This document shows, one piece after another, positions 1 through 26,211 of a DNA stretch of 26,211 nucleotides. The position numbers and the translations under genes are program-made. The DNA comes from a virus: IMG/VR virus record IMGVR_UViG_3300025141_000634, positions 1 to 26,211 of that record; one strand, written 5' to 3'. The notes under the pieces are model-generated. The model was given only the letters and a program-made list of their open reading frames with translations. It was not told where the DNA came from and searched no databases. How positions within the stretch are numbered: the first letter of the stretch is position 1; every line of letters begins with the position of its first letter.

Positions 1-466
1 TACCATAATGAAGGACGAGATCTGTTCCCGTTTCAGTATCGGTAATATCGCCATATTCAGGATTAAGAACAAGATTGAGCAATTGCTCATATACCATCTT
101 GCCATATCCCCAAATACGGACACCCTTCTCTTCTTCACCTCGCACAAGAACGGGCGAGAAGAACCGTTGACGAGCCATTAGAGACTTCGCCATCTTGATG
201 CTCTCTTCGGTGCCTTCGTTAAAAAGCTTCCGAACAAAATCATCCAACGGATCACCTTCACCGAAGTTCTTCTTCGGGCTTAGGAAACCAGGATTGTTGC
301 CCACATTATAGTGGAACCAGAAATCCTTAAAGGGATCTCCATCAGAGGTAGGAACAATACGAATACATTGTTCGCCGTCTTGTGGACGCCAGAACGTATC
401 GCGGTTACCTCCTCTACCATCTAGTGCAGCCTTGCGCTGCTTCATTTTATCAATATTAATTGCCAT
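1..466 (-). CDS. 32: gp32-like single-stranded DNA-binding protein (partial, 3' end outside window)
   Basis: The first 155 codons of a gene that runs off the window's left edge; I translated it by hand from the ATG at 464-466. The product begins MAINIDKMKQRKAALDGRGG and continues through WRPQDGEQCIRIVPTSDGDP, FWFHYNVG, PGFLSPKKNFGE, GTEESIKMAKSLMARQRFF and VRGEEEKGVRIWGYGK, then NPEYGDITD. This block order is that of gp32-type ssDNA-binding proteins of T4-like marine phages. Such proteins coat ssDNA during replication, recombination and repair. The start is set by AGGAG at 476-480, nine bases upstream. Where related proteins have zinc-ligand cysteines around the NFGE block, this one has S, D and D, so a zinc site looks absent. 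Unlike the structural genes it has its own sigma70-type promoter and a hairpin leader. Confidence 0.88.
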   Translation of the reverse strand, partial: MAINIDKMKQRKAALDGRGGNRDTFWRPQDGEQCIRIVPTSDGDPFKDFWFHYNVGNNPGFLSPKKNFGEGDPLDDFVRKLFNEGTEESIKMAKSLMARQRFFSPVLVRGEEEKGVRIWGYGKMVYEQLLNLVLNPEYGDITDTETGTDLVLHYG

Positions 467-569: not shown

Positions 570-833
570 TTAATCAAAAAAATTATGATCAATGGGGATA
601 TTAAGAATGAAGCCGCCCGATTGTTCGCACTGGCACGTTCCTTCATACTCAAATCCCGAAAAATCTGCTCCCAAAACAGAGCATGCCATTTCGCAATGAC
701 CGACTACTCGTCCAAATTCAAAGCCGGTCTTATATGTATTGACAGCCAAAAACGTGCCAAGTGCTGCCAAAGCAATCATTATAGCGGCTCGTTTCCAATA
801 TTTCTTTATGACATTTATTATTTTCTTTAGCAT
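570..833 (-). CDS. small single-pass membrane protein, function unknown
   Basis: 87 aa. A basic N-terminus (KKIINVIKKYWKR) is followed by one hydrophobic segment at about residues 16-32, then a 55-residue tail with four cysteines (C47, C51, C67, C69). By the positive-inside rule the N-terminus stays in the cytoplasm and the tail lies in the periplasm, where the cysteines could form disulfides. There is no lipobox and no cleavable signal-peptide pattern. The ATG at 831-833 has only a weak purine-rich AAAAGA upstream. It begins nine bases after the tubulin-like gene and probably shares its transcript. I recognise no family. A holin or spanin role is possible, but nothing specific supports it; a membrane anchor for the neighbouring protein is equally speculative. 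Confidence 0.6.
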   Translation of the reverse strand: MLKKIINVIKKYWKRAAIMIALAALGTFLAVNTYKTGFEFGRVVGHCEMACSVLGADFSGFEYEGTCQCEQSGGFILNIPIDHNFFD

Positions 834-842
834 GTTATCTTT

Positions 843-1679
843 TTAGTTATTTGTTTGGCTTGTGTTGACAACGACATAGCCATAATTTTGTTCGTATGAT
901 GTAGAGTGAACTTGAAACGCTGCTCTGATATCTTTGTCGATATTTTTATTAATATTCTCGGTTAATCGTCGCAGTAGTTTGCCGTCTGTTTCAAGTACTT
1001 CTGAGTTGATAGCATAATAATAACTCTTTTCAGAGATATTGTCAAGAGAAAAAAACAATTTTTCTTCACCGCTATCTATATCGACAACACCAATTGTGCT
1101 TACAGTCGCTGTGTCTTTAGGTTCATAAGCAGTGGTATGAACTGGTGTCTGATGATCGTATACATTTATCATATGAAGTGCCGATACGATTAAGTCATTT
1201 AGTTTATCATAATATCCAATAATTGGAACATCGCCCAGTATTGTTTCAAGTATCTTGTTATCAACTAAATATATACGCCCGAGGGCATGTGAACGAGCAT
1301 ATTCTTGTAAAATACATCGTACCAATCTTTCTTGGAGAGCGTTTTTTTCTCCCAGAAACTCACGATCTGGCTTAACATAAAGAACGCTCACATTTTTATT
1401 AGAGAGTTGCTCTAAGATTCCCAAGGAAGCTGCCGAGACATATCCAGCCCCAGAGAGCACAAAAAGAATATCATTGGTCGTGTGTCTAAAAAATGTTTTC
1501 AAAGATGGAATGTGTTTTTCATATTCCTCTGGAGATGTTTGTCTTTTCAAGAGATGTGTGCGCTTCTCTTCTTTGTCCACGTCTTCACTGTCGATTTTAA
1601 AAACTTTATATTGAGGGTACTGAGCAAATTTATCCGCAATAGCACAGCCCGCCTTTCCAAGACCGATTATTGTATCCAC
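843..1679 (-). CDS. divergent tubulin/FtsZ-superfamily protein
   Basis: 278 aa. Blocks follow the FtsZ/tubulin fold in order: a nucleotide-loop start IIGLGKAGCAIA (residues 4-15, compare FtsZ VIGxGGAGxNA); strand plus acidic loop VFKIDSED (26-33, compare VAINTD); DILFVLSGAGYVSAA (70-84) at the G-box/T4-loop position; VSVLYVKPDREFLGEKNA (97-114), compare VxVVTxPFxxEGxxR; IYLVDNKILETI (136-147), compare VIPNxxLLxI; the helix YYDKLNDLIVSALHMI (156-171), compare FxxADxVLxxAV; then VVDIDSG (198-204) near the expected T7 loop and a possible second domain ending GYVVVN. The signature GGGTG[ST]G is reduced to SGAGYVS, so GTP binding is uncertain. Such proteins form filaments; phage PhuZ and TubZ centre or segregate phage DNA. 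The GTG start (1677-1679) is supported by AGGAG six bases upstream. It overlaps the polymerase gene end by 13 bases, suggesting coupled translation. Confidence 0.72.
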   Translation of the reverse strand: MDTIIGLGKAGCAIADKFAQYPQYKVFKIDSEDVDKEEKRTHLLKRQTSPEEYEKHIPSLKTFFRHTTNDILFVLSGAGYVSAASLGILEQLSNKNVSVLYVKPDREFLGEKNALQERLVRCILQEYARSHALGRIYLVDNKILETILGDVPIIGYYDKLNDLIVSALHMINVYDHQTPVHTTAYEPKDTATVSTIGVVDIDSGEEKLFFSLDNISEKSYYYAINSEVLETDGKLLRRLTENINKNIDKDIRAAFQVHSTSYEQNYGYVVVNTSQTNN

Positions 1680-2869
1680 CCTAGTCTCCTCATTGTGCCA
1701 TACGATTTTCCAGCACTTACATTAACCTTAAAAGCGCCAAAAGGAGTTTCAGAGAAAATATCTATTAACTCTCCAATAACTGCACGCTCGCTATCATCAC
1801 AATCTATGATAATACTATCATGAAGTGTAAAAGAAATAAAGGACTTTTTCTCCTTCAAAACATCTGCGATTTTAAACGCTCTGGATAATACCAAGTCGCT
1901 TGTGGTGCTCTGTATTAAATAGTTTAATGCGTGGTGTTTGTCTGCTTCAATTTGTCTATCAAAAAAGGTTTTCACCTGTTTTCCGTTGAAGTGTTTTTTA
2001 AGTACTTCGTCACGGTTATAGTGCCGATTTGATAGATAGTCCTTAGACTTTGGATTATATAGCCATGCAAAAATACGCTTCTTTGCCTCTTCGCGTGTAC
2101 AGGTGCCGCGATAAATATTGTCAGTATTCCACTGATGGATGTCATCTTGTGGTTGTTCCTTTCCATTTAGCCCGAGAAGAACCCGGAGTTCGGCAGCATT
2201 ATAATCAAGCTCAACAAAATAATTATTTGTAGGTTTCAGTATGGTTCTATAGTCAGCATCTAAAGTTAGTATTGGAAAGCCTCCTTTATAGGTTGTCATT
2301 CGACCAGTCTTTGTTCCGTGAATGTTATATGAAATATATGGCTTAATGTATTTGCTTTTTTTTAAAAAATTTCTGGTCTTAAGATGGTGGCTTTGTCTCG
2401 CAATTTCTGCGTAGTCAACGGTTAGTTTTTGTTGTCTAATGTTATATGTGAACTCTGCCAGATTTCTCATAAAATCATAGTTCTCTGGCTTGTCATATTC
2501 GTTGAGGATGTGCTGAGTGATTTTATTCTTAACCTCGCAGTACTCAAGCAAAAATCTTTGGGGGACCAGATCATAGAAACAGTGCCTATCAAGGGAGACT
2601 TTCGCTGTCGAAAAGGACTTGTAGAATGCCTTCAGCCGAGCATTGATAGTCTCCCAACGATGCCTTAGAAAACCAGGACATACCTCATCCAATGATTTCC
2701 CCCCAACCAACAGAGAGGCAATGACAGCATCTTTTTGAGCGAAAATAGGGCTATAGTTCCAAGTTGCACTTACGGCATCGAGGTCGAATTCGTCACAATC
2801 ATATATCAGTTTACCCTCGTGATAAATGCCAATACAGTGCTGTTTGTCGTCTAATGCTTGAATAAGCAA
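1667..2869 (-). CDS. minimal family-A DNA polymerase (polymerase domain only)
   Basis: 400 aa with Pol I-type motifs in order: GTKTGRMTT (185-193, the TGR block before motif A); motif A DYNAAELRVLL (222-232, catalytic D222); the O-helix R259-x3-K263-x7-Y271, with N272 replacing the usual glycine; the LIQSTTSDLVLSRA block (318-331); and motif C as H350-D351-S352, where HDE is almost invariant. Residues 1-180 are divergent, and I see no 3'-5' exonuclease ExoI-III motifs or 5'-nuclease domain. It would extend DNA primers, in replication or more likely gap filling or repair. Translation starts at TTG (2867-2869), placed by AGGTGA at 873-878; the next in-frame ATG is over 130 codons downstream, so TTG is preferred. 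It ends inside the tubulin-like gene and begins 10 bases after a structural gene, an unusual place for a polymerase. Activity is uncertain because of motif C. Confidence 0.82.
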   Translation of the reverse strand: MLIQALDDKQHCIGIYHEGKLIYDCDEFDLDAVSATWNYSPIFAQKDAVIASLLVGGKSLDEVCPGFLRHRWETINARLKAFYKSFSTAKVSLDRHCFYDLVPQRFLLEYCEVKNKITQHILNEYDKPENYDFMRNLAEFTYNIRQQKLTVDYAEIARQSHHLKTRNFLKKSKYIKPYISYNIHGTKTGRMTTYKGGFPILTLDADYRTILKPTNNYFVELDYNAAELRVLLGLNGKEQPQDDIHQWNTDNIYRGTCTREEAKKRIFAWLYNPKSKDYLSNRHYNRDEVLKKHFNGKQVKTFFDRQIEADKHHALNYLIQSTTSDLVLSRAFKIADVLKEKKSFISFTLHDSIIIDCDDSERAVIGELIDIFSETPFGAFKVNVSAGKSYGTMRRLGWIQ

Positions 2870-2879
2870 AGTTCACCTA

Positions 2880-4256
2880 TTAATATCCACCAGTGCCGCC
2901 CATACCAGAGGTGCCGCCGCCATTCGAAGGCGACGTTGAGGTAGCTGCTGCTGTGGTAGCACTGGTTGATGTTTTGATATTGTCTTCATAGTTTGTCATC
3001 AATGCCATATCCTCTAAGGAATAGCGATAAAAATTAAACTTACTTCCAATATAACTGATAGCAGCATCAAAGTCAACATTTTTCTTTAAATCTTTAGCAT
3101 TTTTAATAGTTTTCTCTAAACTATGTTGATCCAAGGGGTTAGATAATTCATAATTTAAAAACTCAGCATATACAGGAAGCCAAAAGTCTTGATTATATTT
3201 ATTTTGTATATCACTATCCGATAAAGGTGTGCGTTCTATAAGCTTTGTATGGGTCATACTTTTTTGATTATCATAGGTGCTCATAACTGGTCGTCTTCGT
3301 AGCGCAAGTTCGCTTTCATTTAAAAAATATTTTCTAGCCGATCTGCTATGGCACGTTGTTGTTTCCGATACAACCGGATACGCCGAAGCATAATTATTAT
3401 AAAACTGTATTAAATAAACTCTAATGCATTCGTAATCATAGTCAGTGGCTTTATAATAATATGATTCAAAAAGATTGTCAAGACTTATATTGTAGGAAGC
3501 CATATAATTTTGCATTTCTGGGGTGCCAAGATCGGCAATAATCCTACCTGGGTATTCTTTATCTGCCATAAATCCAAACTTTCTAAGCGATCTCATGTAA
3601 AACTCAAAATTTGCACTTTCTATATATGTGAAATTCTTTGCCGCATCATCGGAATAATTTATCGATGGCTCAATTTCTACAACAAGTCCAGAAATAAGTT
3701 TTGAACATTTTTGCGATAATATAAAAGAGGAGCGACTAAGTGGGAACTTGGAACCTTTAGTCTTATAGAGGTGCTTAACGGATTGTAGGTACTTATCAAA
3801 GTTGGTTGGTCTAGCAAATTGTAGACCATTTTTTTCACTGGGCTTTTCAAAATAGACAGATACTAATGGTTGATATAGTGCTCGAATATGAGCGGCATAC
3901 TTAGTATGGACACTTTCCCAGCCTTTTGTTGGCACAATCGTTTGAATATTGTTTGCCTCATTTTTAATAAGACCCAGCGTGTTTGCTTTATTAAGATGAT
4001 TTTGCAAATCTGCAAAGGCATCGGCAACAAAATTTAACACGTATACCGTATCTTTAGGGGCTTCTTTGTTTGCAGGCAATGCCACAAGGTGACGCTCAGA
4101 GGGGTATACCACGTTACCCTTCATATCGACTTTGCCATAATATGGCGTTAACGAGAAGTCGAAAAAATTATCATATTTCTCAGTTGGAATATCGTGGTTT
4201 AAATATTTTTTTCTTAAATTAAATATTCGTTTTGCGCTGTTTTGTTTCTTTGCCAT
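2880..4256 (-). CDS. putative virion structural protein of unknown function
   Basis: 458 aa, soluble, no membrane segment. A central aromatic-rich part contains FGFMADKEYPGRIIADLG, MQNYMASYNISLDNLFESYY and YLIQFYNNY (about residues 228-290), a pattern I associate with unassigned structural proteins of marine phages. The C-terminus is low complexity: a Thr/Ala/Ser stretch, then GGGTSGMGGTGGY. The last residues resemble the Gly/Met-rich end of the preceding hub-like protein. ATG at 4254-4256 with no good Shine-Dalgarno and only 3 bases after the hub stop suggests translation by coupling. Its place at the end of the baseplate run suggests a baseplate or wedge part, by position only. Confidence 0.6.
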   Translation of the reverse strand: MAKKQNSAKRIFNLRKKYLNHDIPTEKYDNFFDFSLTPYYGKVDMKGNVVYPSERHLVALPANKEAPKDTVYVLNFVADAFADLQNHLNKANTLGLIKNEANNIQTIVPTKGWESVHTKYAAHIRALYQPLVSVYFEKPSEKNGLQFARPTNFDKYLQSVKHLYKTKGSKFPLSRSSFILSQKCSKLISGLVVEIEPSINYSDDAAKNFTYIESANFEFYMRSLRKFGFMADKEYPGRIIADLGTPEMQNYMASYNISLDNLFESYYYKATDYDYECIRVYLIQFYNNYASAYPVVSETTTCHSRSARKYFLNESELALRRRPVMSTYDNQKSMTHTKLIERTPLSDSDIQNKYNQDFWLPVYAEFLNYELSNPLDQHSLEKTIKNAKDLKKNVDFDAAISYIGSKFNFYRYSLEDMALMTNYEDNIKTSTSATTAAATSTSPSNGGGTSGMGGTGGY

Positions 4257-14015: not shown

Positions 14016-16997
14016 TTAATCTTCAAAGCTAGCACCTGTATTTGTGATAACAAAATCGAGTGCAATAAACTCAATTGCTCGTGCGGGTTTTAATAGAATC
14101 TTAGCGTACATAATGTTTCTATCAATTAGCTCTGGAGTTGTTGTGGTTTCATCCAAAATAACTCTAAAGTCTGTAAGTCCAAGTCTCGCCTGCACACTTC
14201 TTAAGAAGGGGTTAACCTTGTTTAAGAACCGATCCCAAGTTGATTGCACGTTTTGATCGAATAGAAGCGTAGCTGCCATTCTTGAAATCTCTTTCTTGAC
14301 AAAAATCATCAAACGACGCACATTAATTCTGTCTAATGCCGAAGGCGTTACCTGAAGTGTCTTTTGACCAAAGATTACAATACCCTCTGCTGGGAATGTA
14401 GCAATTGGATTAATGTTTGCTTCATAGAGATCATCACGGTTCTTGGAGGTTAGTCTTTCGCGGGTCTGTAATACTGGTAATCCAGCAGAGCCTTCGGTCA
14501 AACCTCCCCTCGTAAAGCCAGCGGGGGCAAACCAAAGCTCGCTCCTCTTTTGTGCGCTAGAGAATGTACCAAGCGCTACAATACTGGGGGGTGCCCACAG
14601 AATGCTGTTACTAATATTGTCTCTAATCTGGACCCATGGGTAGTAAGCACATCCATAACTTGAATTAATCTTTCTATTTCTCATGTTTGTGACGGCTGTT
14701 GCGACAGATCCTAGGTTAGAACTCACTGAGTTTGTGTTTTCTGTCTCGGCATAGAAGCCGGTCTTAGGATCGATGACTGCGAGCGCATCGCCCCGAGCTT
14801 CACATACCTCAATCATATGGGCAGTAAGGCTTTCATTCCAGATACCGGGTGCAGCCATTAAGTTATATTCTGCAACCTCTGGGTCAGCAACCGTATCAAT
14901 TGCTCGCTTAACGGAATAGTAACCATAATTTGTTGAATCTGCTCCATCAGCGAGATCGGTATTGTTAAAAGGTTCTTTGTCTCTAATATCTAGACCGTTG
15001 AACCCGCCATAGAGTGGAACAGTAAATCTGTTATATCCCTCATCTAAGACCTCTTTATACGTACCACTTAGAGCCGTGTAAGATGTTCCGGCTGCGCGGG
15101 AACCAGAAACCCAAACCGCAACACCTGTTCCGGCGAGATTTCCAGCAGAAGAGCTTAGGTCATCAAGGCTAAATAGATATGAAAATTCAGTGCCTGCGGC
15201 TGTGGTAAAGGAGTCGCCAGAATATGGCAGTACCTGTAGCACATCGGCATAGCTATCATCATGTCGGTTGTTGGAAGCCTGTGTGGAGTCCGCTCCGAAA
15301 TATGCATCCTTTGGATTAGGAACGCCACCAGCGGAAGCGCTTGCTCTCAATGGAAGAGTGGGATATACCGCTTTAAGCTGAGTGTACCATTCGTCACGGA
15401 TCGGGAAATTGTCACCGTCCCCAGCCGCGACTTGCGAGCCCGATATGTTTATGAATAATTGATCAACACCCTTCACTGGTTGGGTGATATTACTTCCGCC
15501 ACGTACCCAGGCGTTTTGACCAGAGGCATCGGGCGATGTGGCGGCCGCGCCACTATGAAATGTCCACGACTTCATCCGAATGGGTCCATATGAACCGAAG
15601 GGAAGAAGTGCCGGATCCGTTACACCAGCATCTACGTCACTATTAACTTCAACGCGCACATATTGTGATGCATTAAGATAATTTCCGTATAATCTATGTC
15701 GTCTTTCGGTATCATCCCATGAAAGGTATTGATCTCCGATAACTCGTGAAACATATTTGTTCGAGTTAGGGTTAAGGTTACAGGCATTAAATCTTTCTAG
15801 CACAACTGGTGCATTGTCATTATCACGCGCATCTCTGATTTCGACACTGAATGAACCGTAAGGATCAAAATCATTGGTTGCAACCTTAATGTCGGTAATA
15901 GAGATCTTAAGTTTCTTCATCTCATCTTCACCGGCATCAAGCGTGTGGAACTTGAACAGTTTCCTAACACGACTAGTGTTCGTTATTTCGTAGTTGGTAT
16001 AAGATGACTGAAGATCTTGTGAAATAATCCAGGGAGTTTGTGCCGCTTGGAATCCCATACGGAAATCAGCAGCAGCGGCACTGGAGCCACTATCAAGACC
16101 CAGAACGACGCCCCATGATTGTCCCGCTGAAGAGCCGGTAGCATAGACACCTAAGTGTCTTTCAAAACTTCCACCAAGGAAATAAGTTTTTTGTTGTGCC
16201 GTTCTGGTAATTGCTGAGTTTACAAGAGTTGGGTTTGTGTTGAAAACTTTTCTTATGTATCTCGCGGAAGAGGGAGAAAAGTTAAATGCGGTTTCTTCTA
16301 CAATATTACCGTCGTTGTTTTTGATAATTGCATAAAACTCATTAGCAACCGCTGCGGAGGAAGACTGTGCGGTTCCTGCAACCCGTGTATTGGCACTTAA
16401 AGATCTAATCATAACACCACTACCAGTAACGAAAGAGCCGAGCGCTCCTGCTCCAGTGCAGTTTCTTGCCGATCCCGAAATGGTGAGTGAACCTTCGTTT
16501 AAATACCAGACTGCGGCAAGGGCACCTGTCATTATTTGTCCAGCCGCCGTGGGAGCCGACGCTGATGGGAAAACAAACAATCCATAAGCGCCGCCATTAG
16601 TGGCTTCGCTAGCGGCGTTTGATTTCGCGGCTGTCTGCCACCCTGCTTCTCCAGAAGAGCCGTGTGAAAGTCCGCTTTTTTGAGCGCCAGCAAGACGCAC
16701 CATTGTAACAGCGTTACTGTTCTTCAAATACGCTTGAGCAGCATATGCAGCATATGTGGGAGCAAGGTAGTTTCCGTCACGCCAAACATCGCCGCCCTGT
16801 CCGCCTGGGATGGGGTTTCCAAATATTTGAACGAATTCCGAAAAGGCGTTAACCGTGATGGGTCGCATCGATGGACCACGTTCTGTGCGTCCGATAATAA
16901 CTGGACCCATTTCCTCTGGAAGTGCTGGCAATTCTGAATTATCAATTTCATCAATAAAAATGCCGGGTGAAATAAACTTGAAAGACTTAGCTGCCAT
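14016..16997 (-). CDS. 18: tail sheath protein (gp18-like), unusually large
   Basis: 993 aa, against 659 in T4. The N-terminal 95 residues carry the sheath signature: KFISPGIFIDEIDNSELPAL, GPVIIGRTERGPSMRPITV and FSEFVQIFGNP. The C-terminal third (about 690-993) has the conserved core, including FPAEGIVIFGQKTLQ, LDRINVRRLMIFVKKEI, VNPFLRSVQARLGLTDFRV, then DRNIMYAKILLKPARAIEFI. Between them lie some 590 residues of Ser/Ala/Gly-rich beta-type sequence, the surface-domain region that varies between phages. The sheath contracts to drive the tube through the envelope. AAGGAG ten bases before the ATG. A long leader (112 bases) with a hairpin and CTATTTA suggests its own strong late promoter. Confidence 0.93.
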   Translation of the reverse strand: MAAKSFKFISPGIFIDEIDNSELPALPEEMGPVIIGRTERGPSMRPITVNAFSEFVQIFGNPIPGGQGGDVWRDGNYLAPTYAAYAAQAYLKNSNAVTMVRLAGAQKSGLSHGSSGEAGWQTAAKSNAASEATNGGAYGLFVFPSASAPTAAGQIMTGALAAVWYLNEGSLTISGSARNCTGAGALGSFVTGSGVMIRSLSANTRVAGTAQSSSAAVANEFYAIIKNNDGNIVEETAFNFSPSSARYIRKVFNTNPTLVNSAITRTAQQKTYFLGGSFERHLGVYATGSSAGQSWGVVLGLDSGSSAAAADFRMGFQAAQTPWIISQDLQSSYTNYEITNTSRVRKLFKFHTLDAGEDEMKKLKISITDIKVATNDFDPYGSFSVEIRDARDNDNAPVVLERFNACNLNPNSNKYVSRVIGDQYLSWDDTERRHRLYGNYLNASQYVRVEVNSDVDAGVTDPALLPFGSYGPIRMKSWTFHSGAAATSPDASGQNAWVRGGSNITQPVKGVDQLFINISGSQVAAGDGDNFPIRDEWYTQLKAVYPTLPLRASASAGGVPNPKDAYFGADSTQASNNRHDDSYADVLQVLPYSGDSFTTAAGTEFSYLFSLDDLSSSAGNLAGTGVAVWVSGSRAAGTSYTALSGTYKEVLDEGYNRFTVPLYGGFNGLDIRDKEPFNNTDLADGADSTNYGYYSVKRAIDTVADPEVAEYNLMAAPGIWNESLTAHMIEVCEARGDALAVIDPKTGFYAETENTNSVSSNLGSVATAVTNMRNRKINSSYGCAYYPWVQIRDNISNSILWAPPSIVALGTFSSAQKRSELWFAPAGFTRGGLTEGSAGLPVLQTRERLTSKNRDDLYEANINPIATFPAEGIVIFGQKTLQVTPSALDRINVRRLMIFVKKEISRMAATLLFDQNVQSTWDRFLNKVNPFLRSVQARLGLTDFRVILDETTTTPELIDRNIMYAKILLKPARAIEFIALDFVITNTGASFED

Positions 16998-22755: not shown

Positions 22756-23922
22756 CTATTTGTAGATTCCTGACCCTATAATATCGCATGCAATAGATTT
22801 TAAGGCGTTGGTGCCAACATTGTCAGCGCGGACGGCTGCTGTCCAAGATGTACCATTAGTAGTAGCCCAGATTCTACCGCTCTGCCCCACGGCGACGGCT
22901 GTCTTGTGATCTGTTGCAATTGCGTTCATACTGGTGGAATCGGGAGGTGACATATTGGTCCAATTGTCATCACCTTCATCAATAGCTGCATTGGTTTGGC
23001 TTTTGCCTACTCCGTTTTGTCCGACCGCAATCCACCTATTTACACTCCCTTTCATATACACTACTTGCATAAGGTGCAAAGACGTTCCGGTCTTTGAACT
23101 TTGATCTACAAAGTTGTCTCCATCATCGTCGGTGTAAAGAGCATCACCGCTGTTTCCCACAATCATCCATCGACCCGCACCGTCGTAGGCGATAGAAGTC
23201 CAAGTCGCCGTACCACCAGTCAATACTCTTGTCCAATTAGCTCCATTGTCAGTGGATCTCCAGATAGATTTACCATGTGCTGCCAGCCATGTATCGCCAG
23301 TACCCTTATAACACACCGCCATTGCTTCATCCGCTTCATCATTGCTTTCTATTAACCGAGTCCAAAAGACTCCATAGTTACTCGATCTGTAAAACGTTCG
23401 ATAGTCGCCACTAACATTTTCGTCTTGACCGGCACCCATCCAAATATCATTTCCATAACCAATACCCTGTACACCCTGAAATCCAGCCACCATCTCAGGA
23501 GCGGATCCTGAAGTCCAATTACTAGATGTTGTATAATATGGTCTACCAGCACCATCAATTCCAGAACCAGAATTAATATAAACTATTGCACCAAAGGGTC
23601 CGCTCTTGAGATTAAGACCAACTATCCAACGGTCGGGATCGAGGGCATCGTCGCTACTTCTGCCATAGGCAACAGTCTCAACATCTCCATTTCCGAGATC
23701 TAGAAGAGATCCGTTTGTGCCAAGACCATCACCCCATCCATTGAGTCCATTTGAAGCGGTTGTGGAAAATACCCTGCCAGTGTTCGCGCCTGCCATCCAT
23801 CTTGTAGCTGCACAGGTTGTGTAATCTTTACCTGCACAGGTAAGAATATTACTGATTTCAGTCTCGCCTACTTTGACTGCATCGCAGCCTTCAACGCCAT
23901 TTACTTTAAGTATGTTGGCCAT
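22756..23922 (-). CDS. Asp-box (BNR-type) beta-propeller protein, candidate receptor-binding protein
   Basis: 388 aa. Asp-box motifs (S/T-x-D/N-x-G-x-x-W/F) recur at about 180-187 (SSNYGVFW), 223-230 (STDNGANW), 264-271 (TDDDGDNF) and 354-360 (TTNGTSW), each next to strands such as RWMIVGNSG, RWIAVGQNG and TAVAVGQSG. That is the blade repeat of sialidase/YCF48-type propellers. Sialidase catalytic residues cannot be confirmed by eye, and the YCF48-like blades argue for binding rather than catalysis. The N-terminal 30 residues (MANILKVNGVEGCDAVKVGE) are distinct and may attach the protein to the virion. The ATG overlaps the fibre gene stop (TAATG), with no strong ribosome site, so the two are probably coupled. 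Likely a tail or head fibre tip. Confidence 0.65.
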   Translation of the reverse strand: MANILKVNGVEGCDAVKVGETEISNILTCAGKDYTTCAATRWMAGANTGRVFSTTASNGLNGWGDGLGTNGSLLDLGNGDVETVAYGRSSDDALDPDRWIVGLNLKSGPFGAIVYINSGSGIDGAGRPYYTTSSNWTSGSAPEMVAGFQGVQGIGYGNDIWMGAGQDENVSGDYRTFYRSSNYGVFWTRLIESNDEADEAMAVCYKGTGDTWLAAHGKSIWRSTDNGANWTRVLTGGTATWTSIAYDGAGRWMIVGNSGDALYTDDDGDNFVDQSSKTGTSLHLMQVVYMKGSVNRWIAVGQNGVGKSQTNAAIDEGDDNWTNMSPPDSTSMNAIATDHKTAVAVGQSGRIWATTNGTSWTAAVRADNVGTNALKSIACDIIGSGIYK

Positions 23923-26211
23923 TATAGTTCAATCCAGGTATTATCTGGACAGAAATATATAACATTAGTCACACTAGTTCCATAGCCGACTACTCGTACA
24001 GTATCACCAGAGGAATTTGGGGCAACGAAATCAACGGAGCCAGCATTTTCTGACACATAACATGGTTGACCAGCTTTAAAACTTCCTTGTACAGAAGCAA
24101 AATGGAAGTAGCCTCGTACAAGGATACCATCAGTTATAGAAGTTCCAAGCGCTACTCCGAGCAGGGCACTGCTGCTGAGTAATTCATCTGCGTCTGCATA
24201 GTTCCAAACTCCATCATCTTGCAAGCACATTAGTTTACCTGCGGCGAGAGTATCGGAACCATCCTCTGCTCCAAATGTCACGACTTCTCCACCTCCTGTT
24301 GCCGATTTTAATGTAGTTGGGTTAAAATGAGCATTTACACCAAGACTTGATGTAGCTACTGTCCCGCCTCCAACATTCACTCCAAACGAGCCAGCATCAA
24401 TGTCAAATGTCGTGGCTTGGACCTTGTAGGTTCCTGCCCCGTTATTTGCTGAAGACGAGATATTTCCATCAATCACATGATTAAAATGAGCAGTCGCTCC
24501 ACCACCGGCTTCACTAGTGGTGATAGTTGTTTCTCCGTCTGCTATAGTTGCAATTGTACAGTAATCGCCGCCGTCAGCGGTGGATTTTATTTGAATATCG
24601 CTCCCTGCGCCATCTTCTGCGGCGATAACGAGCCCATAGTTGGAGGCTGCATCAGTGACACTAATATCTATACCAGTATTGATTGTAGTGCCTTGGGTGT
24701 TGGCAGAGTCCACGTTAACATCCAAGCCTGTCATTGTTACCTCACTACCTGCGTGGTTGGTAGCAGCATCACTCATATCAATCTTTACCGCAGTGGGGCG
24801 CTGTTCGGCTTCATCGGCAGCTACTCCGCTTTTATCATAATCAATATGCAAAGTTGTTGGATTTACTTCGTCTCCAGTTTGAGAATCGTTGTGATCGATT
24901 ACTAATCCGGCTCCAGTGGTAACATTGCCAAGACTAAGCCTGTGACCCGTTCCTGTTGTTACTTCTGTCGCGTCGACATCGACTACAATACCCGTTGTTT
25001 GTTCGGAGTCGATATATAAAGCAGCAGCAGCGGCTCCCGCTGTTGAGTCATAATCAATAAACAATCCTGAGTGACGGTTTGAGGCATGCCCTCGGTCGCC
25101 ATTGGATTTAATCGCAACCAAAGCAGAAGCGGAACCGGTCTGAGTGCTTGTACTTGCCACAACCAACCCGGCTCCTGTTGTTAGAGCATTAGCGTCGATA
25201 TTTAATGCAGCAGCAGTTGTTACAGCATTGGCAGTAATATCAACAACAGAAGCATCAATATTTGCAGCATTAATATCTAACGCTGTCTTATCAGTATCGT
25301 TGCTATTAAGTTGTATAAGAGGGACACCACCATCACTAGCATTAGTAACTTCCAACGTTGCGGCGGGACTATCAACGGAGGCACCGATACTAACACGGTC
25401 GTTCGCCGCTTCTGCGAAAATGAGGTGGGTTTCACTATCTCCCTCGATGCGGAAATCACAGTCAATTCCAGCATCATTAACAACTACTTCACATACGGCA
25501 CCGTCTTTGACCTCGCCACCTATCGACAAGAGATTTGTTGATGCAGCGGTGCCTGCTTGTCCTCCAGCAAACACGTTGAATACAATCTTACCTCCCTCGT
25601 CATCCTCGGCTGTGTCGGAAGCAGATCCTACAATGGTTGCGTATTCGATATTATCCGGCCAGCTTGCGGCGTCGTGCACACCCTGGAATATGATGGTGCC
25701 GATACCCATATCGTCAGCATCAGCCCACGATGCGCGATTGAGCTTGAGTATCGGTGGCTTGTCCGTCGCGGTGTTCGAGTTTCTTATCTCAACAATCGCT
25801 TCTGTCTCTGCTGCTGTTGACTCGACCAGGAGTATCGGATCCCCAGCACCCCCAACGGCGTCATTCTTGAAATGAACCATCTGAACGCCAACCGCTGCTG
25901 TGTTGTCATTGTGGACAGTAAAAAGAGTTCTGTTACCGGCATCAGAAGAGTCTGATTGTAAGTGAAGTAATCCGCCTGTTGTGAGAGCACTTCCTGTTAC
26001 CTCTATTACATTGCTTGTAGTATTTGATGCTTTAATCTGAGCTACTTGAACAGTTGTGTTTGCGGCCTCGATGAGTAAGGCGTGTTGATCAACATCATTA
26101 TTATTAAGCTGCACAAGAGGAACGTTATACGCTCCAGCAGATGCATTGTTTGTGATTTCTAAGGTGGCTGCGGGAGAGTCTACGGAATCACCGATGCTTA
26201 CTCTATTGGAT
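23922..26211 (-). CDS. repetitive fibre-like virion protein (partial, 5' end outside window)
   Basis: At least 762 codons are visible; the frame stays open to the window edge, so the GTG at 26114 is internal. It is rich in Asp/Asn/Ala/Thr/Val, with irregular repeats of ALxIxAxxxTTGxGL type, as in beta-helical or stacked-strand fibres. A longer unit occurs twice: RVSIGDSVDSPAATLE at the window edge and RVSIGASVDSPAATLE about 268 residues later, each followed by QLNxND. The RVSIG..SPAATLEV pattern is common in phage tail-fibre shafts. The last 110 residues (LLGVALGTSITDGILVRGYF to VIYFCPDNTWIEL) form a separate compact domain of a kind seen in phage surface and decoration proteins. Likely role: tail or capsid fibre in host contact. 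Confidence 0.6.
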   Translation of the reverse strand, partial: SNRVSIGDSVDSPAATLEITNNASAGAYNVPLVQLNNNDVDQHALLIEAANTTVQVAQIKASNTTSNVIEVTGSALTTGGLLHLQSDSSDAGNRTLFTVHNDNTAAVGVQMVHFKNDAVGGAGDPILLVESTAAETEAIVEIRNSNTATDKPPILKLNRASWADADDMGIGTIIFQGVHDAASWPDNIEYATIVGSASDTAEDDEGGKIVFNVFAGGQAGTAASTNLLSIGGEVKDGAVCEVVVNDAGIDCDFRIEGDSETHLIFAEAANDRVSIGASVDSPAATLEVTNASDGGVPLIQLNSNDTDKTALDINAANIDASVVDITANAVTTAAALNIDANALTTGAGLVVASTSTQTGSASALVAIKSNGDRGHASNRHSGLFIDYDSTAGAAAAALYIDSEQTTGIVVDVDATEVTTGTGHRLSLGNVTTGAGLVIDHNDSQTGDEVNPTTLHIDYDKSGVAADEAEQRPTAVKIDMSDAATNHAGSEVTMTGLDVNVDSANTQGTTINTGIDISVTDAASNYGLVIAAEDGAGSDIQIKSTADGGDYCTIATIADGETTITTSEAGGGATAHFNHVIDGNISSSANNGAGTYKVQATTFDIDAGSFGVNVGGGTVATSSLGVNAHFNPTTLKSATGGGEVVTFGAEDGSDTLAAGKLMCLQDDGVWNYADADELLSSSALLGVALGTSITDGILVRGYFHFASVQGSFKAGQPCYVSENAGSVDFVAPNSSGDTVRVVGYGTSVTNVIYFCPDNTWIEL

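Follow-up and report, generated by a model that had tools for sequence, protein, structure and literature searches.

A stretch of viral DNA 26,211 nt long (IMG/VR record IMGVR_UViG_3300025141_000634, positions 1 to 26,211; referred to below as the window) carries, next to a DNA polymerase gene, an open reading frame whose product had been read from its sequence as a divergent relative of tubulin and FtsZ with an altered G-box. The locus raises the question of what a tubulin-like protein of this kind could do in such a setting. We name the 278-aa product TubB. The open reading frame was found as described, on the minus strand and with a GTG start codon, and the sequence blocks quoted in the sequence-only reading occur in it in the quoted order. 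A ribosome-binding site (GAGGAG) lies a few bases 5′ of the start codon (Table 1). TubB is encoded by a real gene: its relatives keep the reading frame and the length down to ~40% identity. The relatives that were aligned are 39 to 91% identical to the window protein, and the residue counts given below refer to an alignment of 55 members.

Table 1. Positions in the window of TubB, its sequence elements, and the neighboring genes
Feature	Position	Strand	Remarks
gp32-like single-strand DNA-binding protein (SSB), cut by window end	2..466	minus	after TubB in 79/82 loci
87-aa protein with N-terminal membrane-like segment (cluster 9)	570..833	minus	after TubB in 16/82 loci
TubB CDS (tubulin-fold protein)	843..1679	minus	278 aa, GTG start; homologs, predicted structure
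H7-to-S7 linker, residues 176-192 (place of T7 and H8 in FtsZ/TubZ)	1104..1154	minus	helix-free in both models; constant length in 55 members
Guanine-contact pattern on H6-H7, Asn141...Tyr157-x3-Asn161	1197..1259	minus	from the 55-member alignment
Altered G-box (loop T4), residues 76-82, SGAGYVS	1434..1454	minus	short loop joining strand 70-76 and helix 80-91
Loop T1, residues 6-13, GLGKAGCA	1641..1664	minus	family GLGxAGCN; Gly6 and Gly8 invariant, 55/55
Ribosome-binding site GAGGAG of TubB	1686..1691	minus	within end of polymerase gene
Family A DNA polymerase, 400 aa	1667..2869	minus	no separate 3′-5′ exonuclease domain recognized; 13-nt overlap with TubB
458-aa protein of unknown function, upstream of polymerase	2880..4256	minus	conserved neighbor, 60/82 loci

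Structure prediction indicated that TubB almost certainly has the tubulin/FtsZ fold. AlphaFold modeled the window protein with a pLDDT of 87 and a pTM of 0.87 from 11 sequences (five models spanning 68 to 87) and a 46% identical relative (L066) with a pLDDT of 93.9 and a pTM of 0.91 from 55 sequences (all five models >92). The order of elements was identical in the two models and included H7, S7, and a C-terminal beta/alpha domain, so that the Rossmann-like nucleotide-binding domain, the H7 core helix, and the C-terminal domain typical of the superfamily were all present in the predicted structures. When either model was compared with the PDB using Foldseek, TubZ and FtsZ ranked first (E ~3e-13), and the top matches were all tubulin, FtsZ, or TubZ structures and covered both domains. 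In VIA-align, the best match was CetZ, for the window protein (Z 25.4, 256 residues, 2.8 Å) as well as for L066 (Z 24.2, 250 residues, 2.9 Å), followed by TubZ, FtsZ, and eukaryotic tubulin across the whole TubB model. The nearest viral model in BFVD, A0A6J5RW92 (“FtsZ Cell division GTPase” of an uncultured Caudovirales phage; TM 0.80 on the TubB query), is 452 aa long compared to 278 aa for TubB. The TubB models stop soon after the last strand and show no long PhuZ-type C-terminal tail. As a prediction, the fold assignment is secure, and the earlier claim of a tubulin/FtsZ fold with H7 holds: a Rossmann GTPase core and H7 were in place, and the best matches were CetZ, TubZ, and FtsZ, not an unrelated family.

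Comparisons of sequence gave no such result. The best Pfam match of the window protein was TrkA_N (E 0.03, below the cut-off), and the Pfam Tubulin family appeared for 1 of 11 TubB members (E 0.04); the curated cut-off of PF00091 Tubulin was not reached (best E values across TubB members, 0.007 to 0.04), nor was that of any other Pfam family. There was no significant match in PHROGs or NCBIfam, a profile search of the PDB returned nothing, and the TubB profile aligned to a profile of canonical phage tubulins with a p value of only 0.03, although T1, T4, and H6-H7 were paired as the fold predicts. Since none of these searches reached significance, assignment of the family by sequence was dropped, and the superfamily assignment made here is based on predicted structure together with motif register.

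The elements of the nucleotide pocket fall into two groups. The glycine-rich loop T1 is present, with the family pattern GLGxAGC[N/A] (Gly6 and Gly8 in 55/55 members, Gly11 in 54/55); residue 13 is Ala in the window protein, and Asn is commoner in the family. The G-box GGGTG[ST]G of loop T4 is absent. Its columns read [G/S]-G(50/55)-[S/A](50/55)-G(50/55)-x-[I/V]-S(44/55)-[G/A]-A, mostly G[SA]GxxS and often GGSGxISGA, and the window protein has Ser in place of the first Gly. The altered G-box noted earlier was thus confirmed, and it characterizes the family rather than being a mutation peculiar to the window protein, because the same column pattern extends across the 55 members. Helices H6 and H7 carry the pattern Asn141-x15-[Tyr/Phe]157-x3-Asn161. 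Both Asn141 and Asn161 were found in 52/55 members and Tyr or Phe at position 157 in most, and the spacing was 20 and 4 residues in 55/55. A WOR-3 FtsZ has Asn, Phe, and Asn at a spacing of 21 and 4, and canonical phage tubulins have Asn, Phe/Tyr (Met in two sequences), and Asn, also at 21 and 4; the superfamily's guanine-contact residues (Asn, Phe/Tyr, Asn/Asp) are therefore present in TubB at a spacing no more than 1 residue off that of FtsZ. In tubulin and FtsZ structures, the Asn, Phe/Tyr, and Asn residues of H6 and H7 touch the guanine base. Given that the majority of members conserve loop T1 and these base-binding residues, most TubB proteins probably still bind guanine nucleotide. In 3 of the 55 members neither Asn is present, and this small subgroup may have lost nucleotide binding as well. 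The suggestion of a “dead GTPase” was therefore too simple: the G-box is altered, but the nucleotide site as a whole does not appear to have been lost.

The second departure, which the sequence-only reading had missed, lies between H7 and S7. In canonical tubulins, loop T7 and helix H8 contribute the acidic residue used in catalysis and form a large part of the bottom half of the contact between subunits. No helix was present between H7 (which ends at residue 174/175) and S7 (which starts at residue 193) in either TubB model. The loop T7 is shortened in all 55 members, the spacing from His169 to Gly197 is 28 in 55/55, and the acidic positions in the linker (186 and 189) are not conserved; a T7 loop with a catalytic acidic residue, followed by H8, is thus not found in TubB. 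In the TubZ of phage phiKZ, the T7 catalytic aspartate acts on the nucleotide of the next subunit (PMC3678025). Judged from the alignment and the models, degeneration in TubB is selective, with the residues for base recognition kept and the half concerned with hydrolysis and assembly lost, and canonical hydrolysis is likely to be absent. Given the loss of T7 and H8, canonical hydrolyzing filaments of TubB would not be expected. The earlier description of a “phage cytoskeletal protein” was not substantiated, since a lack of H8 would be expected to compromise the canonical end-to-end contact.

These features set TubB apart from the systems that it most resembles. The phage tubulins known so far use GTP-driven filaments to place DNA or to segregate it, and CetZ is a cellular protein that, unlike TubB, has a canonical nucleotide site with T7 and H8. 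Bacterial and archaeal FtsZ proteins share with TubB the fold, H7, T1, and the base-binding Asn, Phe/Tyr, and Asn; in contrast to FtsZ, TubB has no GGGTG[ST]G and no T7 or H8, is only ~8 to 15% identical in structural alignments, and has a shorter C-terminal domain with strands in place of the FtsZ helix H9. The structures with the top scores against TubB, over the whole protein, were those of archaeal CetZ (PDB 3zid and 4b45). TubZ and PhuZ (PDB 4ei7 and 2xka; phiKZ TubZ, PMC3678025) have the same two-domain fold (TubZ, Z ~21 to 24, 13 to 19% identity), and PhuZ, like TubB, is encoded by phages. However, TubZ and PhuZ have T4, T7 with the catalytic Asp, H8, a C-terminal tail, and dynamic filaments, whereas TubB has an altered T4, a shortened T7, no H8, and a gene set in a replication operon. 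The divergent FtsZl-1 family (Makarova and Koonin 2010, PMC2875224), in which the T6-H7 region and the C-terminal domain could not be identified, shows the reverse of what is seen in TubB: it keeps the GGGTG GTP-binding loop and lacks a recognizable H7 and C-terminal domain. No account of a TubB-like family or architecture was found in the literature that was searched, and we regard TubB as a new family inside a known fold superfamily.

TubB has many viral relatives. A direct search of viral contigs found 19 relatives, and a profile scan found at least 578 matching contig stretches; its carriers number in the hundreds and are uncultured T4-related phages, for the most part marine. A protein search of cultured phage records found no match. 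The single match in the bacterial genome collection was in a WOR-3 metagenome-assembled genome (CP070664), where it falls in a phage fragment of ~5 kb lying between runs of N in the “chromosome” (~2,249,000 to 2,254,300; L099). This fragment is most likely an artifact of assembly or binning, and a cellular origin of TubB was rejected because this sole bacterial match is of that nature.

We examined the gene neighborhood at 82 TubB loci, of which those without a given neighbor are often cut by a contig end. The genes follow a fixed order: a 1,119-aa protein, a 458-aa protein, polymerase A, TubB, the gp32-like SSB, UvsX, a dCMP deaminase, and a 5′-3′ (FEN) exonuclease. Polymerase A was found in 74/82 loci, the SSB in 79/82, and UvsX in 64. 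Some loci have, between polymerase and TubB, a gene for a small protein that weakly resembles nucleotide pyrophosphohydrolases, and a small gene often sits between TubB and the SSB. The polymerase and TubB genes are direct neighbors in 47 loci, and in 42 of these they share 1 to 16 nt, which suggests translational coupling. The sequence-only reading, which had placed TubB in an operon with a polymerase and a membrane protein, was correct on both neighbors (the latter is small and has one membrane-like segment), and the operon can now be described further as a replication operon of fixed gene order. A gene for an FKBP-type prolyl isomerase follows the SSB in 11/82 loci (e.g., L054:6795-7310).

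Among nine large contigs, PF00476 was matched in 9/9 and PF00136 in 0/9, and the ~400-aa polymerase A was the only DNA polymerase recognized; this enzyme, which has no recognized exonuclease domain, appears to be the sole DNA polymerase of these T4-like phages. PF02916 (the T4 gp45 clamp) had no match in 11 genomes in a search run without a T4 positive control. The tail sheath is of the T4 type and, after one uncultured phage, is nearest among annotated phages to those of Microcystis phage Mel-JY01 and Flavobacterium phage immuto. It is longer than usual (window 14016-16997; 993 aa) and matches known sheaths mainly in its C-terminal part, and a large additional domain of the sheath may therefore decorate the tail. 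Elsewhere in the window, a long, repetitive fiber-like protein is cut by the window end (23922-26210), and the gene after it (22756-23922) encodes repeated W/G-rich motifs resembling beta-propeller blades.

Both Mel-JY01 and immuto have a comparable SSB-UvsX-FEN-helicase block with a polymerase-like gene upstream and no recognized tubulin in the TubB slot. The protein in that slot in Mel-JY01 (L223:7598-8884, upstream of the SSB) has 428 aa and is not a tubulin; its N-terminal part resembles S-AdoMet lyase. As these two phages have the block without TubB, the idea that TubB is a general need of such a replication block is unsupported, and TubB was therefore either gained in its T4-like clade or kept only there.

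Some of these phages encode a second tubulin. On a TubB contig of 165,872 bp there is also a gene for a canonical FtsZ-like protein of 364 aa; the protein belongs to the same superfamily as TubB, and its gene lies at another location in the genome. The family of this protein (alignment A3; ~364 aa) has intact T1, T4, and T7, seen as conserved GVGGxGxK, GGGTGS, and QxFDxKDL. At least 107 stretches of viral contigs match it, the contigs being as long as 281 kb, and no cultured member was found. At one locus (L101:1027-2121, minus strand), the gene lies beside one for a gp55-like late sigma factor. TubB was present on 6 of 19 contigs chosen for the canonical tubulin, and the canonical tubulin was present on 1 of 20 TubB viral contigs tested, most of which are fragments. 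Two TubB contigs, 190 and 184 kb long, were scanned in full in all six frames and contain no second tubulin, and an obligate partnership was on that ground rejected as the general role of TubB. From these counts and scans, many of the phages probably have a TubB that functions independently of the canonical tubulin.

What, then, might TubB do? We tentatively favor the view that it is a guanine-nucleotide-binding protein of tubulin fold that does not carry out canonical hydrolysis and that serves the replication machinery directly, and the direct role in replication is put forward with the same reserve. TubB would keep guanine-nucleotide binding without the T7 loop and helix H8; the loss of these would mean that it does not form GTP-hydrolyzing, treadmilling protofilaments by the canonical route; and, with nucleotide bound, it would act as an accessory or organizer that holds or regulates the polymerase and the replication proteins. 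Gene neighborhood, which counts for this view, is no proof of function. Against the view stand the members without either Asn, the Ala at residue 13 of T1 and the Ser that opens the G-box in the window protein, and the cultured phages Mel-JY01 and immuto, whose similar block does without TubB. It is doubtful whether one can go as far as a TubB that is a working part of the DNA replication machine, i.e., a polymerase accessory that binds guanine nucleotide and was derived from a filament-forming tubulin through the loss of T7 and H8. The main rival is that TubB docks on one end of the host FtsZ filament, blocks its growth, and so stops division during phage replication, since a subunit that has only one of the two faces used in contact lends itself to capping a filament. 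TubB indeed appears to keep the nucleotide face and to have lost part of the other contact half, and unrelated phages encode FtsZ inhibitors (Gp0.4 of phage T7, Icd of P1, and Hdi of T5; PMC13423816, PMC11897509, and PMC10714956). We consider this rival unlikely, however, in view of the low identity of TubB to FtsZ in structural alignments. Moreover, known phage FtsZ inhibitors are small and of patchy distribution, unlike TubB, whose gene belongs to the replication operon and has been retained throughout a diverse clade.

Alternatively, TubB may polymerize through a changed contact into stable, nonhydrolyzing filaments that anchor replicating phage DNA, as a fixed version of the PhuZ/TubZ cytoskeleton. 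The full tubulin fold, with its C-terminal domain, is consistent with this, and loss of T7 would yield stable rather than dynamic polymers; yet H8 and T7 belong to the known end-to-end contact, and the lack of a helix there in the TubB models, like the lack of a long PhuZ-type tail, makes such a scaffold distinctly unlikely. A role for TubB in capping or nucleating the canonical FtsZ-like tubulin, or in assembling together with it, would fit the contigs that encode both proteins and the intact T1, T4, and T7 of the latter, but it is improbable given the 190- and 184-kb contigs without a second tubulin and the rarity of that gene among the mostly fragmentary TubB contigs tested. Finally, the sequence searches, with their nonsignificant scores for TrkA_N, Tubulin, and the canonical tubulin profile, would by themselves allow TubB to be an unrelated Rossmann-type protein whose likeness to FtsZ is coincidental. 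This is scarcely credible when the top Foldseek matches are uniformly tubulin, FtsZ, and TubZ structures over both domains and the profile alignments, weak as they are, keep the register that the fold predicts.

None of the family libraries searched annotates TubB, and a gene conserved on many viral contigs is here given a fold and a place. A large uncultured group of T4-like phages encodes, together with its replicative polymerase, a tubulin fold that has lost the elements for hydrolysis and assembly but kept those for base recognition. If the more far-reaching view, of TubB as a working part of the replication machine, is true, TubB would be a tubulin relative with a noncytoskeletal role. 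TubB may represent either a tubulin recruited into DNA replication or a phage tubulin decoy directed against the host.
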